Shown in pieces: positions 1 to 9,622 of a stretch of DNA of 64,000 bases. The DNA lies in the NCBI RefSeq assembly GCF_019797825.1, contig NZ_CP081855.1:1550001-1614000 (forward strand), written 5' to 3'. The position numbers and the translations under genes were made by a program. Each line of letters opens with the position of its first letter. The stretch's first letter is position 1. Below the pieces are notes generated by a model. That model was not told where the DNA came from. It saw nothing but the letters and a program-made list of their open reading frames with translations, and searched no databases. This DNA comes from Limosilactobacillus panis. Its GTDB lineage: Bacteria; Bacillota; Bacilli; Lactobacillales; Lactobacillaceae.

Positions 1-58
1 CCAGCGATGGCAGGTACGGTTTAATTGAGCAAAATTAACTTGTAAATGATGGCAATAG

Positions 59-150
59 TGGTTAGACTTAAGAAGGTTCAACATGATTAAGGCTCTTTTC
101 TATTTAAGTTTTGTATCACTTAATAGTCTAACCATGTTGGGCTTTTTTTG
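59..150 (+). terminator. Terminator-like hairpin at the left edge
   Basis: TGGTTAGACT (59-68) can pair with AGTCTAACCA (125-134), and a T-run follows at 143-149 on the plus strand. The loop is long, so this is a weaker terminator than the others in the window. It may end a plus-strand gene lying outside the window. Bases 1-58 and 151-200 show nothing I can name. Confidence 0.35.
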
Positions 151-200
151 TAAAATCAAACATACTAATGAGTACTAGCACCACGCGTATTTTAAGATAT

Positions 201-1736
201 TTATTCTTGTGGTTCCTGCAGTTTCTGGGCCTCAGGAAAGGCGCTTAAAACGAATTCACGGGGGCCCTTACTAAAGTCGAGGGGTTCTTCCGCCTGGTAC
301 ATTTCCTTATGGCCCCCAACATAGAGGGTAACCATATCCGGCTGCAATTCAAACTGAACCCCCAGCTCGATTGCCGCCCGCAACAGGCGTTGGACGTCAT
401 CCGAATAGTCCTTGCTGATGGCCTGGAGCGGGTGCTGGTAGTTGATATTGTTGGTGTACCGGTCATTGGCAATCTTCAAGCCGAAAGACAGAAGGTTACC
501 ATTTTCGATTCGATCAGCCAGTTGACCACTGATGGTCAGGGTCGGATCCTCCACCCGCCGCTTGACAAAGGTCAACGCCAGTTTGTACTCCCGCGGGGCA
601 TTGAACTCTTCCACAAAGGCCTGGAGCTCGTCAATCAGCTTGTTAGCGGCATCCTTCATCCAGCCGGTCTCATCCGTTGGCTTCTGTAGGGCAACCTCGT
701 TATTAAGCTCACGCGCTTTGGTCAGACGTGTCGTCAAGTCATCCGGAAGGGGTGAGACAATGGCGTCCAACAAGAGGAGCTCCAAGAAGTTCAGGGTATC
801 ATCACTGATTCCCGTCCGGGAGAGCGGGTCGAGGTCAAAATTGCGGAATTCGAGATAGTCGATTCCGGCTGCCATTACTCCCCGCAAGTCGCGCATATTC
901 TGATCATGATGACGTAGACGAACAGGCCCGAAGAATTCTTTGAGGCTGTAGAAGGTCCCGTTGTCGACGTACTCCTGCAGCTGGTCAACGTGCTCTTCTA
1001 GAGAGTTGTAGGTAATCCGTTCACTAGCTTTGTTATCGTCCCCGTACTCGCTGGCCCGAATACTCCGAACCGGAAGCTCAATGTTGTCCGGAAAGCTCTG
1101 CGGCATGTCCTCAGCAACCGGGCTGGCCCCATACAGGTAGGTGAACAGCCACTGGTAAAGATAATAGGCCTGGGCGAGTTTGAAGTAGAGGTGGTTACGG
1201 AAGTCAACTTCATTGCCGTACTCGTCAATATAAAAGCGCTGGTAGAGCGTTGATACAAGGTCGCTATCCAGACCAAAGTTGATATGGACATCGCCCATGA
1301 TTTCCTTGGCAACCCCATATTTATTTCCCAGGTAATCATGGTTAGCCTGGGCCCATGGCTTGGTGTAGGCATCCTTTAAGTAGTCCATGTCGTGTTGGTA
1401 AACCGGCGCGGGGGCCATGCTAAGTGGCCACAGGCGCTCATCGCTGTGGAGCTGCTCGATCATAATCTGTTCCAGCATCTTCAAGTGAGTTACCGCATGC
1501 CGGCTTCCCACTACCGGTGGTGTCTCAAAGTCAATCATGTCATCGGTAAACCCTGAATTCAGGTAAATGTTGTATTGACGCGACCGTAGATTAGCCGGAT
1601 ATGGGTACCGACTGGCCCGGCCGTTCGTCAAGACACGATGCTTTTTAGCTTCTAAGCCGAACTGACAGGCAAACATTTTGGCGTTCAGTTCGGGCTCTTT
1701 CAAAGCTGACTTGATTTGGTCATATTTATCAGCCAT
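201..1736 (-). CDS. gshA: Glutamate-cysteine ligase (GshA type)
   Basis: A 511-residue protein that should ligate L-glutamate and L-cysteine with ATP to gamma-glutamylcysteine, a cytoplasmic thiol used in redox defence. The length is close to E. coli GshA (about 518). Family blocks are visible: FGLEAK (26-31) in place of the GIERE block, DDMIDFETPP (65-74) like the DFAEALLEFITP block, DERLWPLSM (99-107) nearly identical to DERMWPLSM, then KYG, MGDVHINF and YLYGASP in the family order. No ATP-grasp GshB domain follows, so this is not the GshF fusion. A lone ligase without gshB nearby suggests gamma-glutamylcysteine is the end product here. The start ATG is preceded by GGGAGGATG. Confidence 0.82.
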   Translation of the reverse strand: MADKYDQIKSALKEPELNAKMFACQFGLEAKKHRVLTNGRASRYPYPANLRSRQYNIYLNSGFTDDMIDFETPPVVGSRHAVTHLKMLEQIMIEQLHSDERLWPLSMAPAPVYQHDMDYLKDAYTKPWAQANHDYLGNKYGVAKEIMGDVHINFGLDSDLVSTLYQRFYIDEYGNEVDFRNHLYFKLAQAYYLYQWLFTYLYGASPVAEDMPQSFPDNIELPVRSIRASEYGDDNKASERITYNSLEEHVDQLQEYVDNGTFYSLKEFFGPVRLRHHDQNMRDLRGVMAAGIDYLEFRNFDLDPLSRTGISDDTLNFLELLLLDAIVSPLPDDLTTRLTKARELNNEVALQKPTDETGWMKDAANKLIDELQAFVEEFNAPREYKLALTFVKRRVEDPTLTISGQLADRIENGNLLSFGLKIANDRYTNNINYQHPLQAISKDYSDDVQRLLRAAIELGVQFELQPDMVTLYVGGHKEMYQAEEPLDFSKGPREFVLSAFPEAQKLQEPQE

Positions 1737-1874
1737 CTAGCATCCTCCCAATCATAATATATCATTCTCACTCTAACACTTTTGGAACATAATGGACAAT
1801 CTTTTTAGAGACAATGTTAATAAATTATTTTACTAGATGTCTGTATTAGTCTTTGAAAGTGCCGGCAAAGGATC

Positions 1875-2363
1875 CTACAAGTCCAGAATTTGCACGGGGT
1901 TTCCCCATTCCTTAACGAGCTTGAGGAGACGGTCGACGGGAATGACCACCGTTTTAGTGTTGTCGTTGGGGTGGCAGCCAATTGGTAGACCACTGTGAAT
2001 AAGATTTCGGTCAAACACAAGAACGATATCATGGCTCTTATCATTAATTAGATTAAGCGGCGAAACCGCCCCACTTCGGATACCTAGGTACTTAGGTAAG
2101 TCATCACGTGAAACGAGTGACAGGCGACTAGTGTGGAGGGCCTTGCGTAAGGCGCGAAGGTCTAGCTGATGGTCATCGTGAAAGGTAACCAGGTAGAAGT
2201 GATGCTTGCCGTGTAAAAAGAGGTTCTTGGCGCGACCAAAGTGGCAATTGATGTAAATTTTATCTGCCGCTTCCGCAGTATAGACTGGGGGATGGTTAAT
2301 CAGTTGGTAGTCAATATGGTGTTGGTTAAGCAGGTTAAGAACCTCTTCTGATGGATTATTCAT
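1875..2363 (-). CDS. prdX: YbaK/PrdX-type aminoacyl-tRNA deacylase
   Basis: A 162-residue single-domain protein of the YbaK/ProRS-INS superfamily. Members hydrolyse misacylated tRNA, typically Ala-tRNA(Pro), in trans. The order HHIDYQLINHPPVYTAEAA, KNLFLH, FYLVTF, LDLRALRK, SRDDLPKYLGI, GAVSPLNLIND and a C-terminal strand is typical of the PrdX/ProX branch, and the SPLNLIND block is characteristic. TTGAGGA lies nine bases before the ATG. It stands alone on the minus strand between gshA and a small unknown gene. The exact tRNA substrate cannot be told from sequence. Confidence 0.8.
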   Translation of the reverse strand: MNNPSEEVLNLLNQHHIDYQLINHPPVYTAEAADKIYINCHFGRAKNLFLHGKHHFYLVTFHDDHQLDLRALRKALHTSRLSLVSRDDLPKYLGIRSGAVSPLNLINDKSHDIVLVFDRNLIHSGLPIGCHPNDNTKTVVIPVDRLLKLVKEWGNPVQILDL

Positions 2364-2429
2364 GTTTGTTTTTCCTCAAACAAGTGTATGCAGTTAAGTA
2401 GTTTTATTATAGGTTAAGAAGCCACTAAC

Positions 2430-2858
2430 CTAATGATTATTTCCCGGGAAATATGTGACGACTGCTGGTGGATGAACCGCGCGTAGAAAACTTTGGGCTG
2501 CGGGAGTTGGGTTGTTCGCAGCCTGCTGGATAAGGTAGCGGATGCGGGATGTAGCAATCCACTGGTCACCGACGAGGGTTTGGGCCATTCTAGGAGCAGC
2601 ATCTTTGCCATAGCCCTTTCCAGGATGGACACGGTTGAGTTGCCAGCTTGGGTAGGTGATGATTTGGGCGGTGGGGACCCGACTATGCCAGCGGGCCTCG
2701 TAATGCCAGCCGGCCGCTACCCAGGTGTATTTGACCTGGACGTAGCCATTCTTGGTCTGGCGCTGGACGGCAGCATAGCGTGGAATCGGCCACGGAGCCA
2801 GGTTACGGGAACTAGATGCCGCGCCAAAAACATTTTTGAATGTCGACATGGGTCGCAT
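2430..2858 (-). CDS. Hypothetical protein, Trp-rich, overlapping ogt
   Basis: I do not recognise this 142-residue protein. It is basic and rich in tryptophan and tyrosine, with a YTWVAAGWHYEARW stretch and a C-terminal AAQSFLRAVHP segment. It has no signal peptide or membrane helix. The ATG at 2858 has GGAGGGGG 12 bases upstream; a second ATG at 2849 gives three residues fewer. Its 5' end overlaps the last 47 bases of ogt in another frame, which suggests translational coupling with ogt. It could also be a remnant of a longer gene. Function unknown. Confidence 0.5.
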   Translation of the reverse strand: MRPMSTFKNVFGAASSSRNLAPWPIPRYAAVQRQTKNGYVQVKYTWVAAGWHYEARWHSRVPTAQIITYPSWQLNRVHPGKGYGKDAAPRMAQTLVGDQWIATSRIRYLIQQAANNPTPAAQSFLRAVHPPAVVTYFPGNNH

Positions 2859-3123
2859 CTTTGAACGGCACCCCCTCCGCTTCTAGCATGGGTCGTTGGT
2901 CAATCCAGCCAGGCACTAACCGACCGTTTGCAGTGACGACCCGGTGGCAGGGATGCTTACCGCACCCGCCAAATTTGCCCAGCGCCTTACCAACGAGGCG
3001 GGCGTTGCGCGGGCGGCAAATCATGCGGGCAATCTGGCCATAGGTTGTGACGCACCCGTACGGGATTAAGTCCACTGTGTTTAGGACGTCTTGGGTGAAT
3101 TGTTTGTCTAGCTTGGTTGCCAT
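2812..3123 (-). CDS. ogt: Single-domain O6-alkylguanine-DNA alkyltransferase-like protein (MGMT family)
   Basis: A 103-residue protein that equals only the C-terminal DNA-binding and active-site domain of Ogt/MGMT. It keeps the acceptor motif PCHRVV, so the catalytic cysteine is present, unlike ATL proteins where it is Trp or Ala. It also has YGCVTTYGQIA and the GRLVPGW/LEAEGV tail seen in ATL/YbaZ proteins. It probably repairs, or flags for repair, O6-alkylguanine. AGAGGTG sits five bases before the ATG. It begins only 25 bases from the trailer repeat of the CRISPR array and runs in the direction inferred for pre-crRNA transcription, so it may be co-transcribed with the array. Confidence 0.8.
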   Translation of the reverse strand: MATKLDKQFTQDVLNTVDLIPYGCVTTYGQIARMICRPRNARLVGKALGKFGGCGKHPCHRVVTANGRLVPGWIDQRPMLEAEGVPFKDATHVDIQKCFWRGI

Positions 3124-3148
3124 GGGGCACCTCTTTTTTGTAACTATA

Positions 3149-4308
3149 ATTCACGTTCTACTTCTATTAGATAAATACAGCTATAAGGTAAGACGTAAGT
3201 AATCAGGCATAAATATTTACATTCCACTTCTATTAGATAAATACTAAATGATTGCTTTTAACGTTAGAAGCATTAAGAGTATAGCATTTACATTCCACTT
3301 CTATTAGATAAATACGGGTTTTTGATTGCTTTCAAGTGGTGCATGACTACTTGAATTTACATTCCACTTCTATTAGATAAATACTGGTCATCTTAGTGAC
3401 CATATCTTGGTAAGTTGTATTTACATTCCACTTCTATTAGATAAATACCCACAGGTTAGCCATTCCGGAGTAAGAGTAAAAGACATTTACATTCCACTTC
3501 TATTAGATAAATACACTTATCCCAAAAATTGTAGTAGCAAGCCTGTGGCATTTACATTCCACTTCTATTAGATAAATACGCCATTTATCCAAGACAGAGG
3601 CTACAACTTGCAAATGATTTACATTCCACTTCTATTAGATAAATACATTACCATTCTCATCTTTTACATAAAGTTTGACGTGATTTACATTCCACTTCTA
3701 TTAGATAAATACATCGTTTGATTGAAGACTACGCTGTAAAGAACAATGAATTTACATTCCACTTCTATTAGATAAATACCATTCCGGACCAGGCCGGCAA
3801 GGAGATCAAAGAGATATTTACATTCCACTTCTATTAGATAAATACGAGCTAGATAAGATTACTTTTGCAAAAGATAACGAGATTTACATTCCACTTCTAT
3901 TAGATAAATACTGCTTCGGTTGAAGCTGATGGTACGCCTCTTTAAATATTTACATTCCACTTCTATTAGATAAATACCATGCCGTCGTCAAATTCTTCTT
4001 CGCCCATTATGAAATTTACATTCCACTTCTATTAGATAAATACAGCACCAGTTTGAGGGGCCTTACCAGCGGACGACTTGATTTACATTCCACTTCTATT
4101 AGATAAATACGGCGACCCATACCAGGACGCGGCTAGTGTTTGCAATATTTACATTCCACTTCTATTAGATAAATACTAGTTAACTCTAATAGTTTGCCTA
4201 TTCAAAATACGATATTTACATTCCACTTCTATTAGATAAATACTTATTGAAAACTTGATGTAAGAATTTATCCCATTCATTTACATTCCACTTCTATTAG
4301 ATAAATAC
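3149..4308 (-). CRISPR. Orphan CRISPR array, 18 repeats / 17 spacers, type I-B-like repeat
   Basis: Eighteen 30-bp repeats start at 3149, 3215, 3286, 3355, 3419, 3485, 3550, 3617, 3683, 3750, 3816, 3882, 3948, 4014, 4081, 4147, 4214 and 4279. The plus strand reads ATTTACATTCC, then ACTTCTATTAG, then ATAAATAC. Seventeen copies look identical. The copy at 3149 has three substitutions in its first half, as is usual for the trailer end. Spacers are 34-41 bp, mostly 36. Read on the minus strand the repeat begins GTATTTATC and ends GGAATGTAAAT, the 3' end typical of type I-B repeats (Clostridioides, Listeria). Transcription is therefore inferred leftward, with the leader expected right of 4308. No leader is there: an IS4-family element starts at 4309. 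No cas gene is present in the window. Confidence 0.97.
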
Positions 4309-5870
4309 CTGAAACTTGAAAGTATGAAGACAGACTGATCCCTTGGTATCACAGGGCATATTTTAATTAATTTAACCATTTAGCTTGCTGTTAACAGCGA
4401 AACTAACCGTTTCGGCAAAAATGTGAAGAACTGATTCATCATCTGAATAATTTGGGCTCTTCTTGCATAAACTTCATGATTAATAATCGTTTTTAACGAA
4501 TTTAGAAGCCATACCAGTGCTTGAGACAACTCAATATCTGGCATGGCTTCGTTCATTATAAAGAATAAATCCCCAATGGTGCGATCATCCTGATTTTGCC
4601 GTTCCTGCCAAGCTAATAGGTCATAAGTCATCATGACAATTGCTAAATGGCCACAAAGCCCGTCATAATTTTGAACTTGTGATTTGTCGAGCCGCAAGTA
4701 TTGCTTGGCAACTTTAAAGTAATTCTCAATTTGCCATCTTCGGGCGTATAGTTGAATGATCGCTTGTGGCTGAAGGCCTAACTGAGTCGTTGCCAGTACT
4801 AGGTAGTCATCTTGACGGACCCGATTAGCCACAAATACCAAGCGAAGCTTGAATTTTTGGTTCCCGACGTGCGCTTCGACAAAGCAGCTGTATTGATAAG
4901 CTTGCTTGGGTTGATATTTTGAGGCCTGCAGTCGCTTGTATAATGCTTTAACTGAATATTGCCGTCCGCGATATTGATAGTAAATTTTGCTGGACCGTTT
5001 AAGCATGCCCACGCCGTTTAATCCCAACTTGGTTAATTCATAGAACATTTTTGGTGAGCTATACCAGCTATCAAATAACACATAGTCAGCCAGAACGCCA
5101 TTTGCGAGGGCTTGCTTGACAAGTTGCAATGAAACGAGGTTCATTTTTTGCTGTGCTTGGCGACGTCTCCGGCCAGCAATTGTTCGTTGATCGGTTGTTT
5201 TAGCTGATTTTCCAAGGACGTTTTGTGGCTTCTTGGAAGACATTAATGCAAAGTTGATCGGTAAGAATGTATTGGCGTCACTCCAACCCAAAGTTAAAGC
5301 CCGGTATCCCTTAATATATAACTGTTTGTCATGGTCAAAGACTCGCGCTAGTAATTCGGTTTGGGTGGCGTACTCACGGGAAAAGAGTGTATCGTCAATG
5401 ATCAATGCTAACCGCCGCCGGCGGTCAATAAACGGTCGTAAATGCTTGATTAAATGACTCCCAACTTGACAAATCAAGCGTTGCCAATTGATCCGGCCAT
5501 CGTTCAAATTATTTCTGACGGTGCGACTGGTAAAGTTAGGTGTTTCATGGGCTCGATAAAGCGAGCGTCCCAGGAACTTTGTCGTGAGCAGCCATTCAAT
5601 GACCTTCATCAAGCTGATTTCTGAATTCCGGCGATAATTCACCAACTTGGTGAGTTTAGATAGACCAATGAGGGAAGTAAATTGATGAACAATATTGTGA
5701 AGCTCGTTTTCTGTATTTTTTTGTCTTATAATATTCATGACGTAAGTCTCCTTTGTATCTTGGTTTTGGTCGACTAAAGTATACAACGCAGGAGAGCTTG
5801 CGTTTATTTTTTTGCCAAAAAAGCCAATAACCACACGCCTTTGGCGTGATTATTAGCTTTCAAGTTTCAG
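4309..5870 (-). mobile_element. IS4-family insertion sequence, 1562 bp, no target duplication
   Basis: The ends are 14-bp perfect inverted repeats: CTGAAACTTGAAAG at 4309-4322 and its complement at 5857-5870. One transposase gene lies between them. The left end abuts the last CRISPR repeat exactly. The flanks (GATAAATAC on the left, TTAAAAGAA on the right) share no direct repeat, whereas IS4-family insertions normally duplicate about 9-12 bp. A deletion or rearrangement at one side after insertion is the simplest explanation. Confidence 0.85.
4380..5738 (-). CDS. IS4-family DDE transposase
   Basis: A 452-residue transposase. Catalytic blocks are visible: IIDDTLFSR (first Asp), LFDSWYSS (second Asp), and YARRWQIENYFKVAK, which fits the IS4 signature Y-(2)-R-(3)-E-(6)-K. 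The frame is open for 32 more codons upstream, but the ATG at 5738 is preceded by AAAGGAG at normal spacing, so that start is chosen. The gene looks intact. It is transcribed toward the CRISPR array, so read-through could supply array transcripts in place of the lost leader. Confidence 0.92.
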   Translation of the reverse strand: MNIIRQKNTENELHNIVHQFTSLIGLSKLTKLVNYRRNSEISLMKVIEWLLTTKFLGRSLYRAHETPNFTSRTVRNNLNDGRINWQRLICQVGSHLIKHLRPFIDRRRRLALIIDDTLFSREYATQTELLARVFDHDKQLYIKGYRALTLGWSDANTFLPINFALMSSKKPQNVLGKSAKTTDQRTIAGRRRRQAQQKMNLVSLQLVKQALANGVLADYVLFDSWYSSPKMFYELTKLGLNGVGMLKRSSKIYYQYRGRQYSVKALYKRLQASKYQPKQAYQYSCFVEAHVGNQKFKLRLVFVANRVRQDDYLVLATTQLGLQPQAIIQLYARRWQIENYFKVAKQYLRLDKSQVQNYDGLCGHLAIVMMTYDLLAWQERQNQDDRTIGDLFFIMNEAMPDIELSQALVWLLNSLKTIINHEVYARRAQIIQMMNQFFTFLPKRLVSLLTAS

Positions 5871-5919
5871 TTAAAAGAATAATTTTTGTCATATACGTCG
5901 AGTATACAACTCTCCTGCG
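5779..5919. repeat. GTATACAA plus inverted 10-mer, across the IS4 right end
   Basis: GTATACAA at 5779-5786 is followed by CGCAGGAGAG (5787-5796). The same octamer at 5902-5909 is followed by CTCTCCTGCG (5910-5919), the exact reverse complement of that 10-mer. The first copy lies inside the IS upstream of the transposase, the second 32 bp outside the IS end. The role is unknown. It may be a regulator site or a trace of the rearrangement at this junction. Confidence 0.5.
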
Positions 5920-6139
5920 AATTTTCGATATTCTAACCGAATTAGCATAAATTCAATATTATTTTTGTTAACTCAATCCTTAGTACCAAACTGACCGATT
6001 CGTACATACCACAAACGCTACCATATCAAGGCTCACCTCTACTTCCACTACCCTAATCGACACGACCTGCCAAACTGGACATTCACCTACTCGACTATCG
6101 AAATAGGACATAGAACACTCGACCCGCCAGCTTCAAATA
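5871..6139. other. Non-coding stretch between the IS4 element and rlmD
   Basis: No gene is supported. Bases 5871-5960 are AT-rich and could include decayed leader DNA. Bases 5980-6130 are unusually poor in G on the plus strand. No leader, cas fragment or second IS end could be recognised by eye. Confidence 0.4.
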
Positions 6140-6188
6140 GAAAAAGTGTACTTTTTCCAATAGCTCAGAAGGGAAAAAGTACACTTTC
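6140..6188 (-). terminator. Terminator downstream of rlmD
   Basis: A near-perfect stem pairs GAAAAAGTGTACTTTTTCC (6140-6158) with GGAAAAAGTACACTTTC (6172-6188). It lies 38 bp after the rlmD stop, and its 3' arm on the minus strand runs into a short T-rich tail. It is likely the intrinsic terminator of rlmD. Confidence 0.6.
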
Positions 6189-6225
6189 AATCATCTATAA
6201 ATGCCATTATAACGCGGTTTGTCGG

Positions 6226-7602
6226 CTATTTTTCTGTGCGTTCAAGGACAGTAACACTCTCAACATGCGTCGTCTGTGGGAACTGGTCGACGGGCTGGAT
6301 TGGCTTGACAACGTGGTAGCCCCGCTCACCGAAACGTTGAATATCCCGCACCAGGGTGGCCGGATTGCAGGAAACGTAAATCACTTTCCGTGGTGCCATC
6401 TTGCCAGTCGCCTCAATTAAAGATTCCGCAAGGCCCTTGCGTGGTGGGTCCACAATCACTACGTCCGGCTCCAGTCCCGCTGCTTGCCACTTGGTAAATT
6501 GTTCTTCCGCCTTACCGACCACGAATTCCGCATTCCGAATTCCGTTCCGCTTGGCGTTGTGCTTGGCATCTTCAATCGCGGCGGGCACAATTTCCACCCC
6601 ATAAACCTGCTTAGCATGCTTGGCCACGGCTAAGGAAATCGTCCCAATCCCGCAGTAGGCGTCAATCACCGTCTGACTACCATCCAGACCGGCATTATCA
6701 ATGGCAGTCTGGTAGAGGCGCTCCGTCTGTTGCGGGTTGACCTGGTAAAACGACAGCGGCGAAATAGCAAAGTCAATCCCCAGTAACTGGTCATGGATCT
6801 CGTCGGCACCCCACAAGGTCTGATCACGGTCACCTAGCAGGCGGTTCGTCTTCTTGTCATTAATATTCTGGACAATGCTCTTCACTTCCGGCACGCCGGC
6901 CACGATACCGGCCACAATCTCCTTAGCCATCGGGAGCCGCTTCGTGTTGGTGACCAAAACGACCATCACCTCATGGCTGTAGTAACCACGACGCACCATC
7001 ACCGTTCGAATGACGCCCTTGCCCGTCCGCTCGTCATACGGAGTCACATGGTACTTCCGTAAGAGGTCACGGACCACAACGATTGCTTTATCAATCTGCG
7101 GGTCTTGAATATAGAAGTCCTCAATCGGTACCAGGGTATGGCTCCCCCGCTTGTAAAAGCCAGTCTGCAGCTGGCCGCGCACCATCTTGACCGGGACTTG
7201 GGCCTTATTCCGGTAGTGGTAAGGTCGGTCCATCCCCATCGTTGGCAGGACTTCGATATCTCCCAGGTGGGCCTTTTCCAGAAGTTCTTTAATCTGGTGC
7301 TGCTTAAACTTCAGCTGAGCCGCATACTTCAGGTGCCCCAGAGGTGCAATCCCCGTCTGAATATACTTCTTATCTTTGACGTCGACCCGGTCCGGGCTCT
7401 TACTCTGCCATTCCATCACCCGGCCCCAGGCAAAGTGGCGGGCTACCTTGGTCACCCGCACGGTAATCTTTTCCCCCGGTAAGGCGTTGGGCAAGAAGAT
7501 TGGGAAGTCGTCAACCTTAACGACCCCATTGCCCTCGTAGGTCAGGTCGGTCACTTCTGCCTGGTAATCGTTGTTCTTATGTACTGGTATTTGAACCTTC
7601 AT
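6226..7602 (-). CDS. rlmD: 23S rRNA (uracil-5-)-methyltransferase, RlmD/RlmCD family
   Basis: A 458-residue SAM-dependent methyltransferase of the TrmA/RlmD family, expected to make m5U in 23S rRNA (U1939 and possibly U747, as in Gram-positive RlmCD). It has an N-terminal TRAM domain, the SAM motif DAYCGIGTISLAVA, VDPPRKG, and the catalytic cysteine in YVSCNPATLVRDI. The CGGC cysteine cluster that holds a 4Fe-4S centre in E. coli RlmD is replaced by TGIAPLGHLKY, so this is a cluster-free version. The ATG at 7602 follows GGAGGAAGAAAA; the in-frame upstream extension lacks a ribosome site. In Bacillus the orthologue directly follows dgkB; here the exporter/marR pair separates them. Confidence 0.9.
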   Translation of the reverse strand: MKVQIPVHKNNDYQAEVTDLTYEGNGVVKVDDFPIFLPNALPGEKITVRVTKVARHFAWGRVMEWQSKSPDRVDVKDKKYIQTGIAPLGHLKYAAQLKFKQHQIKELLEKAHLGDIEVLPTMGMDRPYHYRNKAQVPVKMVRGQLQTGFYKRGSHTLVPIEDFYIQDPQIDKAIVVVRDLLRKYHVTPYDERTGKGVIRTVMVRRGYYSHEVMVVLVTNTKRLPMAKEIVAGIVAGVPEVKSIVQNINDKKTNRLLGDRDQTLWGADEIHDQLLGIDFAISPLSFYQVNPQQTERLYQTAIDNAGLDGSQTVIDAYCGIGTISLAVAKHAKQVYGVEIVPAAIEDAKHNAKRNGIRNAEFVVGKAEEQFTKWQAAGLEPDVVIVDPPRKGLAESLIEATGKMAPRKVIYVSCNPATLVRDIQRFGERGYHVVKPIQPVDQFPQTTHVESVTVLERTEK

Positions 7603-7737
7603 TTTTCTTCCTCCATTAATGGTCTTACGCCCTATTATACACGGCACCCCCCGCTAGTAACCAGCCCCTCTTTAAGTCCGCATACCGGCTTAGTCACGTG
7701 TGCCGCACCGTTGACATTAATAAGGATTGGTTCCACC

Positions 7738-7793
7738 TTGACAAATAAGTGCATCTGCATCTATAATTTCACCCGTAAATACATGCAGATGCA
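7738..7793 (+). promoter_or_regulatory. Promoter with an 11-bp inverted operator for the exporter/marR operon
   Basis: TTGACA (7738-7743) and TATAAT (7762-7767) are 18 bp apart. TGCATCTGCAT (7750-7760) lies inside the spacer and its exact reverse complement ATGCAGATGCA lies at 7783-7793, just downstream of the start site. Such a placement would block RNA polymerase, so the likely ligand is the MarR protein encoded downstream, as autoregulation is usual in this family. The assignment to MarR is an inference. Confidence 0.8.
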
Positions 7794-7855
7794 TTTTATT
7801 ATGAGGAGGAATAATTATTCTTAACATTACTAACCGTCAACGAACTTTAACCGCG

Positions 7856-9169
7856 ATGCTTCTTTTGCTAGCATCATTTATCGGTCTAATGAGTCAGACG
7901 ATGATTGTCACCGCCATACCGGTGGTTCAAGCTGAGATGAAGCAGCCACTCAACCTGGTGCAGTGGCTCACTACCGGCTACACCCTCGTACTCGGAATTA
8001 CCACCCCGCTGTCGGCTAACCTTTACGAAAAGTATAATAACCGGCAGCTATTCTCGGGGATCATTAGCCTCTTTATTCTGGGTACCATCCTTGGTTGCCT
8101 GGCACCAAACTTTATCTGCCTTTTGATTGCCCGCCTCATCCAAGCCGCGGCTGGTGGGGTACTAATCTCCTTTCAGATGACTGTTCTGGTTTCAATCTAT
8201 CCACCACAGAAACGGGGAACCATTATGGGACTATCATCCCTCGTTATTGCGTTTGGTCCAGCGATTGGTCCCACACTGGCAGGTTTTACGATGCATCTTT
8301 GGGGATGGCGCTCAATTTTCTGGGTCGTTCTTCCCTTTATGATCTTCACCCTACTAGCCGGCTGGGCCGTGATGCCTGCCTTTACCGTCGCCCACCATCT
8401 CATGCTGGATCAACGCTCGATTATTGAGCTCATCTTGGGTCCTGGACTTTTCATGGCTGGCTTTTCTCTGGTCAGTACGACGCCACTCCTTGCTTGCCCA
8501 ATGCTATTAATTGGGGTTATAGTATCAATAGCTTTTTATCAGCACCAGCAGAAATTAACCAAGCTGCTCCTGGACTTCCGGGTTTTTCACTACTGGTCCT
8601 TTAGCTTAATGTTAATCGCCGGTGCCTTCCTGTTCATGACCCTCCTTAGTGCTGAACAGATGGTTTCGGTCTTTGCGCAAAACAGTCTCCACGTTTCTAG
8701 TATGGTAGCGGGATTAATCCTTTTCCCCGGTGCTTTTTTAGACGCGATCACGGGGATGATTGTCGGCCGATTATACGACCGCATTGGCGTTAACCGTCTG
8801 GCTATTCCGGGACTAATCTTATGTGTCGTTACGACGCCACCTACTCTGGTGATTACCGCTCATATTTCCTTACTAACCCTTACTCTCCTTTACACAGGAC
8901 GGATGATTGGTATCGGCATGGCGTTTGTACCTACAATGTCAGAGTCGTACCGGGGCATGCGTAAATCCGATATTGGGCAGGCAACCGCAATGAGCAACGC
9001 CCTTCGTCAAATTGCCGGTGCCCTAGCAGTTACGTTGGTCGTAGTCATTAGTGATGTTCCAAATAACTCGGTTATGGGAATGCGTTGGGCAATGGGATTG
9101 ACGTTGCTTTTCGCCATCTTATCACTGGCTGGCTGCTTAATATATGCATGTAAGAAAGGAGCACATTAA
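7856..9169 (+). CDS. DHA2-type MFS drug exporter
   Basis: A proton-driven membrane exporter, about 437 residues from the first ATG, with a helix-rich hydrophobic pattern of the EmrB/QacA type. Visible motifs are YEKYNNRQLF (loop 2-3), RLIQAAAGG, and the antiporter motif GPAIGPTLAG in helix 5. The start is uncertain. The ATG at 7856 lies at the edge of helix 1 and has no ribosome site. A perfect AGGAGG (7804-7809) stands seven bases before an in-frame ATT at 7817, which would add 13 residues (ILNITNRQRTLTA). Initiation at this AUU is plausible. marR follows after five bases. The substrate is unknown. Confidence 0.85.
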   Translation: MLLLLASFIGLMSQTMIVTAIPVVQAEMKQPLNLVQWLTTGYTLVLGITTPLSANLYEKYNNRQLFSGIISLFILGTILGCLAPNFICLLIARLIQAAAGGVLISFQMTVLVSIYPPQKRGTIMGLSSLVIAFGPAIGPTLAGFTMHLWGWRSIFWVVLPFMIFTLLAGWAVMPAFTVAHHLMLDQRSIIELILGPGLFMAGFSLVSTTPLLACPMLLIGVIVSIAFYQHQQKLTKLLLDFRVFHYWSFSLMLIAGAFLFMTLLSAEQMVSVFAQNSLHVSSMVAGLILFPGAFLDAITGMIVGRLYDRIGVNRLAIPGLILCVVTTPPTLVITAHISLLTLTLLYTGRMIGIGMAFVPTMSESYRGMRKSDIGQATAMSNALRQIAGALAVTLVVVISDVPNNSVMGMRWAMGLTLLFAILSLAGCLIYACKKGAH

Positions 9170-9597: not shown

Positions 9598-9622
9598 TTT
9601 AATCTTTTTATTTAGAATACAC

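Follow-up and report, generated by a model that had tools for sequence, protein, structure and literature searches.

An orphan type I-B-like CRISPR array of Limosilactobacillus panis, very probably truncated at a repeat edge by an IS4-family element, and a parallel truncation in strain DSM 6035

The CRISPR array found near the left end of the window (the whole stretch of 64,000 nucleotides of Limosilactobacillus panis DNA analysed here) is very probably the dead remnant of a type I-B locus of this species (or of a very close relative), into which an IS4-family element inserted, and whose leader side was then removed by a deletion bounded by that element. Orphan arrays and the decay of CRISPR-Cas loci have been described, with insertion sequences in Shigella CRISPR-Cas cited (PMC8616872); the likeness is that of an array without cas genes whose decay is tied to mobile elements. 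It differs from the loci as treated in that paper in that the cut sits at a repeat edge, twice, in opposite orientations and within one species. Among open-access papers, none was found that deals by title or abstract with the present locus or with an insertion sequence (IS) at an L. panis array. Three further points described below are not visible from the window alone: L. panis DSM 6035 shows a parallel truncation, single repeats occur elsewhere, and one spacer comes close to matching a prophage of its own chromosome. The coordinates of the features are collected in Table 1.

Table 1. Features of the array and its surroundings, in positions of the window
Positions	Strand	Feature	Evidence
2812..3123	-	Flanking gene, trailer side; presumably methylated-DNA-cysteine methyltransferase-like, from its PCHRVV motif	99.7% identical over 337 bases in DSM 6035
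3149..4308	-	CRISPR array, 18 repeats/17 spacers, type I-B-like repeat GTATTTATCTAATAGAAGTGGAATGTAAAT on the minus strand	Differs by 1 mismatch from the G362 repeat, whose array follows a I-B cas operon
3149..3178	-	Decayed terminal (leader-distal) repeat, 3 mismatches	DSM 6035: similar decayed repeat, 4 mismatches, same place
3449..3484	-	Spacer 13, 4 mismatches each to the GH25 endolysin gene of the own-chromosome prophage, a G378 stretch and the lysozyme gene of plasmid pLRI02	
3713..3749	-	Spacer 9, matching a tail chaperone gene at 32/37 positions, in a prophage-like part of G231	
3978..4013	-	Spacer 5, matching weakly, with 7 mismatches, the gene for the major tail protein in that part of G231	
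4309..5870	-	IS4-family insertion sequence, 1562 bp, one of 8 full genomic copies, no target site duplication (TSD)	Perfect 14-bp ends 4309-4322 and 5857-5870
4380..5738	-	IS4 transposase gene	Start placed from annotated plasmid copies; longest window ORF starts at 5834
5871..6225	.	Intergenic stretch that follows the 23S rRNA methyltransferase gene and is no CRISPR leader	94-100% in L038 (DSM 6035), L049, L062, L042 and L046; no repeat copy there
6226..7602	-	Flanking gene, other side; presumably RumA/RlmD-like 23S rRNA methyltransferase (rumA)	Protein 99% identical in DSM 6035

The repeats are 30 nt long at a spacing of 64-71, and all but the leftmost are exact copies, which agrees with the count and the degenerate left-hand copy given in an earlier note made from the letters of the window alone. 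The 17 spacers are all unique and of uniform length (34-41 nt) between identical direct repeats, as in a CRISPR array, and 17 identical 30-mers at regular spacing are far beyond chance. A second array with the same repeat was sought in the genome (G000; three contigs, 99.5% complete), but within 3 mismatches only one further copy was found, matching at 27/30 positions and standing alone on the 10,959-base contig C3. At the same threshold the repeat occurs in 3 of 397 genomes of the family and in 4 of 50 of the genus (own genome included), and no viral contig gave an exact match to one 24-base pattern of the repeat.

The subtype and orientation of the array were read from a congener in the genus (genome G362, locus L034), in which the repeat is identical at 29 of 30 positions, the spacing is similar and the array has the same orientation towards its leader. 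There, 25 repeats, some of them decayed, lie directly downstream of a complete I-B operon (cas6-cas8-cas7-cas5-cas3-cas4-cas1-cas2); neither this operon nor the leader that G362 also owns was found for the L. panis array. The proteins of the G362 operon match models for Cas2, Cas1b, Cas4, Cas3, Cas5b, Cas7/Cst2 and Cas6, those for Cas1b, Cas5b and Cas7/Cst2 exceeding the cut-off, and an eighth protein, with a Pfam Cas_CXXC_CXXC domain and no NCBIfam match, was read as a putative Cas8. A repeat with one change thus stands beside a type I-B cas operon in a relative, which supports subtype I-B for the L. panis array and bears out the earlier description of its repeat as I-B-like. Because the G362 array follows its cas operon in a matching layout, the comparison supports a leader that would have lain at the right of the array and crRNA that would have come from the minus strand. 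The left is taken as the leader-distal end because the decayed repeat sits there, as expected of a terminal repeat, and the finding of CCA or CCG on the 5' side of protospacers (see below) agrees with minus-strand crRNA. The opposite arrangement, a rightward crRNA with a leader between 3124 and 3149, which had been put forward as grounds for refuting this reading, was rejected, as only 25 bases are available there and G362, the decayed repeat and the CCA/CCG side all speak against it.

No leader was found beside the array. The best BLAST match between the array flanks and three intact leaders had an E value of 0.38, the motif ATCGACAG which the intact leaders L034, L035 and L036 have in common (by eye) is absent from positions 1-8000 of the window, and the place upstream of the first repeat is occupied by the IS. 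A leader to the right of the IS was also considered and ruled out; the 356 bases there are not a leader because congeners share them where no such array follows (Table 1). In the stretches of L038, L049, L062, L042 and L046 that were examined, the repeat was not found with up to 6 mismatches, and this search, run over 42 loci, gave a single copy, that of L039 (the L049 stretch stops after another 163 bases). The DNA downstream of rumA (positions 5871-6225 of the window, and L062, L042, L046 and L153) looks like a hot spot in its own right: past one conserved edge the species carry differing cargo, namely an ApeA-like defence gene and what we take to be an IS30-type element and an ISL3-type fragment, and in L062 and L042 a 55-nt stretch of this DNA is repeated about 2.5 kb further on.

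Cas1 and Cas6 were each found in two of the five genomes searched (G362 and G012 both times) and not in G000, DSM 6035 (G410) or G404, the controls of both searches being detected; Cas7, searched for with the G362 query and without a positive control of its own, gave no match in G000. All eight G362 Cas proteins matched relatives in L035 of G012, and none matched in the window, contig C3 (L009), the first 20 kb of contig C2, L153, L152, L038 or 100 stretches of DSM 6035; in the L. panis genome itself, Cas proteins other than Cas1, Cas6 and Cas7 were covered in the window, C3 and the first 20 kb of C2. The lack of leader and cas genes reported from the window was thus borne out, and for Cas1, Cas6 and Cas7 it extends to the genome. 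Lacking a leader as well as Cas1, Cas6 and Cas7, the array would neither grow nor be processed. The earlier note had allowed that the array might still work with Cas proteins encoded elsewhere, and its 17 identical repeats without decay and the promoter-like sites nearby would suit an orphan array still in use, with a promoter from the IS and Cas proteins from elsewhere; but the promoter-like sites number 14 against 10.1 (sd 3.2) in shuffles, a resident prophage has a near match with CCA, and Cas1, Cas6 and Cas7 were not found in a genome that is 99.5% complete, with the controls of the Cas1 and Cas6 searches detected, so we regard continued use as extremely improbable.

The IS starts at the first base after the last repeat and has the ends CTGAAACTTGAAAG and CTTTCAAGTTTCAG, so that the earlier observation of an IS4 element with perfect 14-bp ends abutting the array without target duplication stands. 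Its longest ORF matches the NCBIfam model NF049925 'IS4 family transposase' with 464.8 bits (cut-off 250), DDE_Tnp_1 is also over its cut-off, and the IS4-type DDE transposase together with the 14-bp terminal inverted repeats and the TSDs at other copies places the element in the IS4 family. A TSD of 6-8 bp was seen at 6 of the 8 full copies in G000, the array copy and one other having none, while among nine plasmid copies (taken from 11 records holding at least 80% of the IS) three had a TSD of 8-9 bp and six had none, two of these six sharing one site. The missing TSD at the array is thus suggestive, but is not rare for this IS and is not proof. The eight near-identical copies point to a recently active element, DSM 6035 holds the ends of additional copies at other sites, and the loss suffered by the array is, as had been suggested, probably recent. 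The SNPs of the array copy gave no sign of a hybrid between two other copies.

The target preference of the IS was described by a matrix made from 40 flanks of other copies, with the two array copies excluded; many of these flanks are the two sides of one insertion and so not independent. Ranked by this matrix among all 8-mers of the window, the left flank ATAAATAC stands at 0.984, the right flank TTAAAAGA at 0.996 and GATAAATA at 0.948, and four known TSDs in the same matrix rank at 0.809-0.985; taking the IS as one base shorter at that end gives GTTAAAAG as the right flank, with a rank of 0.819. Each end of the IS thus resembles an insertion site in its own right, in keeping with a recombination of two copies. 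Target preference does not fully explain the exact repeat edge, because better sites exist inside the repeat (TTAGATAA and TAGATAAA score higher). Of 1153 positions in the array, 75 equal or exceed the score of ATAAATAC.

We suggest that the array was formerly transcribed, on the minus strand, from a leader at its right, and that its spacers of about 36 nt, with a PAM close to 5'-CCR, served against tailed phages of Limosilactobacillus. An IS4-family element would then have inserted at the leader-side end of a repeat, and the DNA from that insertion point to the TTAAAAGA site downstream of rumA would have been deleted. The likeliest route is that two IS copies pointing the same way, one inserted in the repeat and the other at TTAAAAGA, recombined and so left a single IS with unmatched flanks. 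A single copy inserted in the repeat, whose transposase made an adjacent deletion up to the rumA side with no second copy involved, would likewise leave one IS with unmatched flanks; a high-scoring IS4 target at the far end point is not needed for such a deletion, however, and TTAAAAGA is one, though the same end point read as GTTAAAAG is not high, and we consider this route possible but rather doubtful.

That the deletion was bounded by the IS is supported by comparison with DSM 6035 (its array contig and coordinates being the same in G410 as in G424, the genome of L038), which aligns with the window over 3751 bases at 99.1% and, further right, over 16.3 kb at 97.4%. On the rumA side DSM 6035 has the 356 bases that adjoin the IS without a single difference, and beyond them this strain enters what we take to be an ISL3-type transposase fragment and a cold-shock gene, and then an ApeA-like fragment (named by eye against a G404 protein in which Pfam finds ApeA domains). 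A deletion with one end at the IS is supported because G000 lacks these genes of DSM 6035 to the right of that sequence. The deletion would have taken the leader, such repeats as lay on the leader side, and the accessory genes that DSM 6035 retains there. The earlier note had the leader and probably the cas operon going in one IS-bounded deletion; the deletion holds, but the cas genes need not have gone in it, since DSM 6035 also lacks Cas1 and Cas6. The cas loss would have come in the same event or an earlier one, and may predate the IS, or the cas genes may have sat elsewhere. An intact leader or cas operon at this locus, which had been proposed for comparison in close strains, was found in none of the relatives compared.

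DSM 6035 has at the same locus, beside the same methyltransferase gene, an array of the same repeat (L152; 8 repeats and 7 spacers) with a decayed terminal repeat, and its leader-side end also runs straight into the same IS4 element. This array differs in that none of its 7 spacers is among the 17 of the present one, in that the opposite IS end is met, i.e. the IS lies in inverted orientation, and in that the contig ends 54 bases inside the IS. The junction falls at the same base or one off, one C being assignable to either side. Because the spacers of the two strains differ, the two truncations probably arose independently after the strains diverged. The mate of this IS junction, towards the leader side, was not found in 101 of about 150 contigs of DSM 6035 (covered by the first 20 kb of the longer contigs and, for the array contig, by its last 9.5 kb); on that other side of the IS a leader would be expected behind TATTTATC if it was a simple insertion, and the rumA segment if there was an inversion. 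At the place corresponding to position 9620 of the window, DSM 6035 joins an end of the same IS4 (54 bases at a contig end) that is absent from the window. Three predicted CRISPRs are mentioned in the genome paper of this strain (PMC4513149).

For spacers 9 and 13 the matches lie in tail and lysin genes of prophage type, and so does the weak one of spacer 5 (Table 1), as expected of spacers of mobile-element origin. The 5' neighbours of the five sites of these three spacers are CCA, CCG, CCG, CCG and CCA, few of the sites being independent. The near-match of spacer 13 in the own chromosome lies at C1:968120, with mismatches at positions 6, 12, 18 and 21 and a 5' CCA; in type I-E systems, mismatches at positions 6, 12 and 18 matter little. 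The prophage either entered after the immunity had died or has drifted away from the spacer. This prophage is also matched by the first spacer of the DSM 6035 array, with mismatches at positions 2 and 11 (2 in all) and CTA instead of CCR, and the G000 stretch C1:960001-976000 (L189) is a prophage-type region with the near-protospacers of both spacers. For the other 14 spacers no assignable source was found in phages (none at E 0.01, and nothing below E 0.09 with the limit set to 5), plasmids or 47 genomes of the genus. The phage matches obtained under relaxed limits, with E values of 0.09 and 0.1 at best, have the look of chance. These spacers bear on the possibility that the array was captured without cas genes, by horizontal transfer or as an anti-cas or regulatory orphan array, which would suit the lack of Cas1 and Cas6 in both L. 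panis genomes and the single repeats that a sister species and the plasmid-size contig carry; but at E 0.05 the spacers of the two arrays gave no match to the cas region of G362 or G012, those that can be assigned match phage genes, and the spacers of the two strains are entirely different, which suggests spacer uptake at the locus within the species, and so capture seems unlikely.

The lone repeats look like debris of arrays. The sister species G404 has one exact repeat (L153, 7258-7287) flanked by its rumA and methyltransferase genes, oriented like the L. panis array and joined at its leader-side edge to a 5'-truncated merR gene, the junction being placed to a few bases by protein alignment. 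The C3 repeat (L009, 9018-9047) has on one side a presumably mscL-like gene, in a stretch that G104 shares at 96% identity until about 7 bases short of the repeat, and on the other a truncated relE/parE-like gene (59% against an annotated RelE/ParE toxin over 59 residues). An origin of the repeat as coding sequence was considered, the G404 copy reading IYIPLLLDKY in frame and the three changes of the C3 copy being synonymous there, and was ruled out by two full-length MerR-type homologues among four matches; as these lack the peptide and their homology begins right after the repeat, the G404 frame consists of a repeat fused to a merR gene without its 5' part, and the frame at the C3 repeat has stops on both sides. 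Solitary repeat units, or Racr, are repeat mimics, often downstream of a promoter and matching the host subtype (PMC10651486), and the C3 copy, a candidate for such a unit, resembles those presented there in standing alone on a plasmid-size contig that belongs to the same cell. It is unlike them in having no promoter-like site upstream on that strand (none on the plus strand in L009 8500-9400) and its host has no Cas found, so that a Racr role finds no support beyond the repeat itself.

Since the same edge ends the array in two strains and the lone repeat in G404, repeat edges might be recurrent break points, perhaps because Cas1-Cas2 cuts there. The junctions in the present strain, in DSM 6035 (with the IS in opposite orientations) and in G404 (with the truncated merR) would fit, but IS4 target preference accounts fairly well for the two IS cases, the G404 junction is resolved to only a few bases, and each coincidence has, by estimate and not by computation, a chance of about 0.05-0.1 by position alone; we hold this to be very unlikely. 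The wider claim, that the leader-side edge of the I-B repeat is a recurrent chromosome break point at which three lineages (the present strain, DSM 6035 and G404) each lost the leader side, the IS lying in one orientation or the other or being absent altogether, is a shade less likely again; were it true, breakage there would fit Cas1-Cas2 strand transfer at the leader-repeat junction joining transposon or broken chromosome ends, and CRISPR loci would die by a self-inflicted route through their own Cas1-Cas2.

Truncation by the IS and an IS-bounded deletion, which we prefer, would presumably have affected the phage immunity of the strain, and makes the locus a natural record of the loss of CRISPR immunity, in which two strains with different spacers carry the same transposon, in opposite orientations, at the same repeat edge. 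A prophage nearly matched by an old spacer sits in the same chromosome. Two questions can be put to such a locus: do IS4 elements have a preference for CRISPR repeats, and does the loss of immunity admit the phages that were once targeted?
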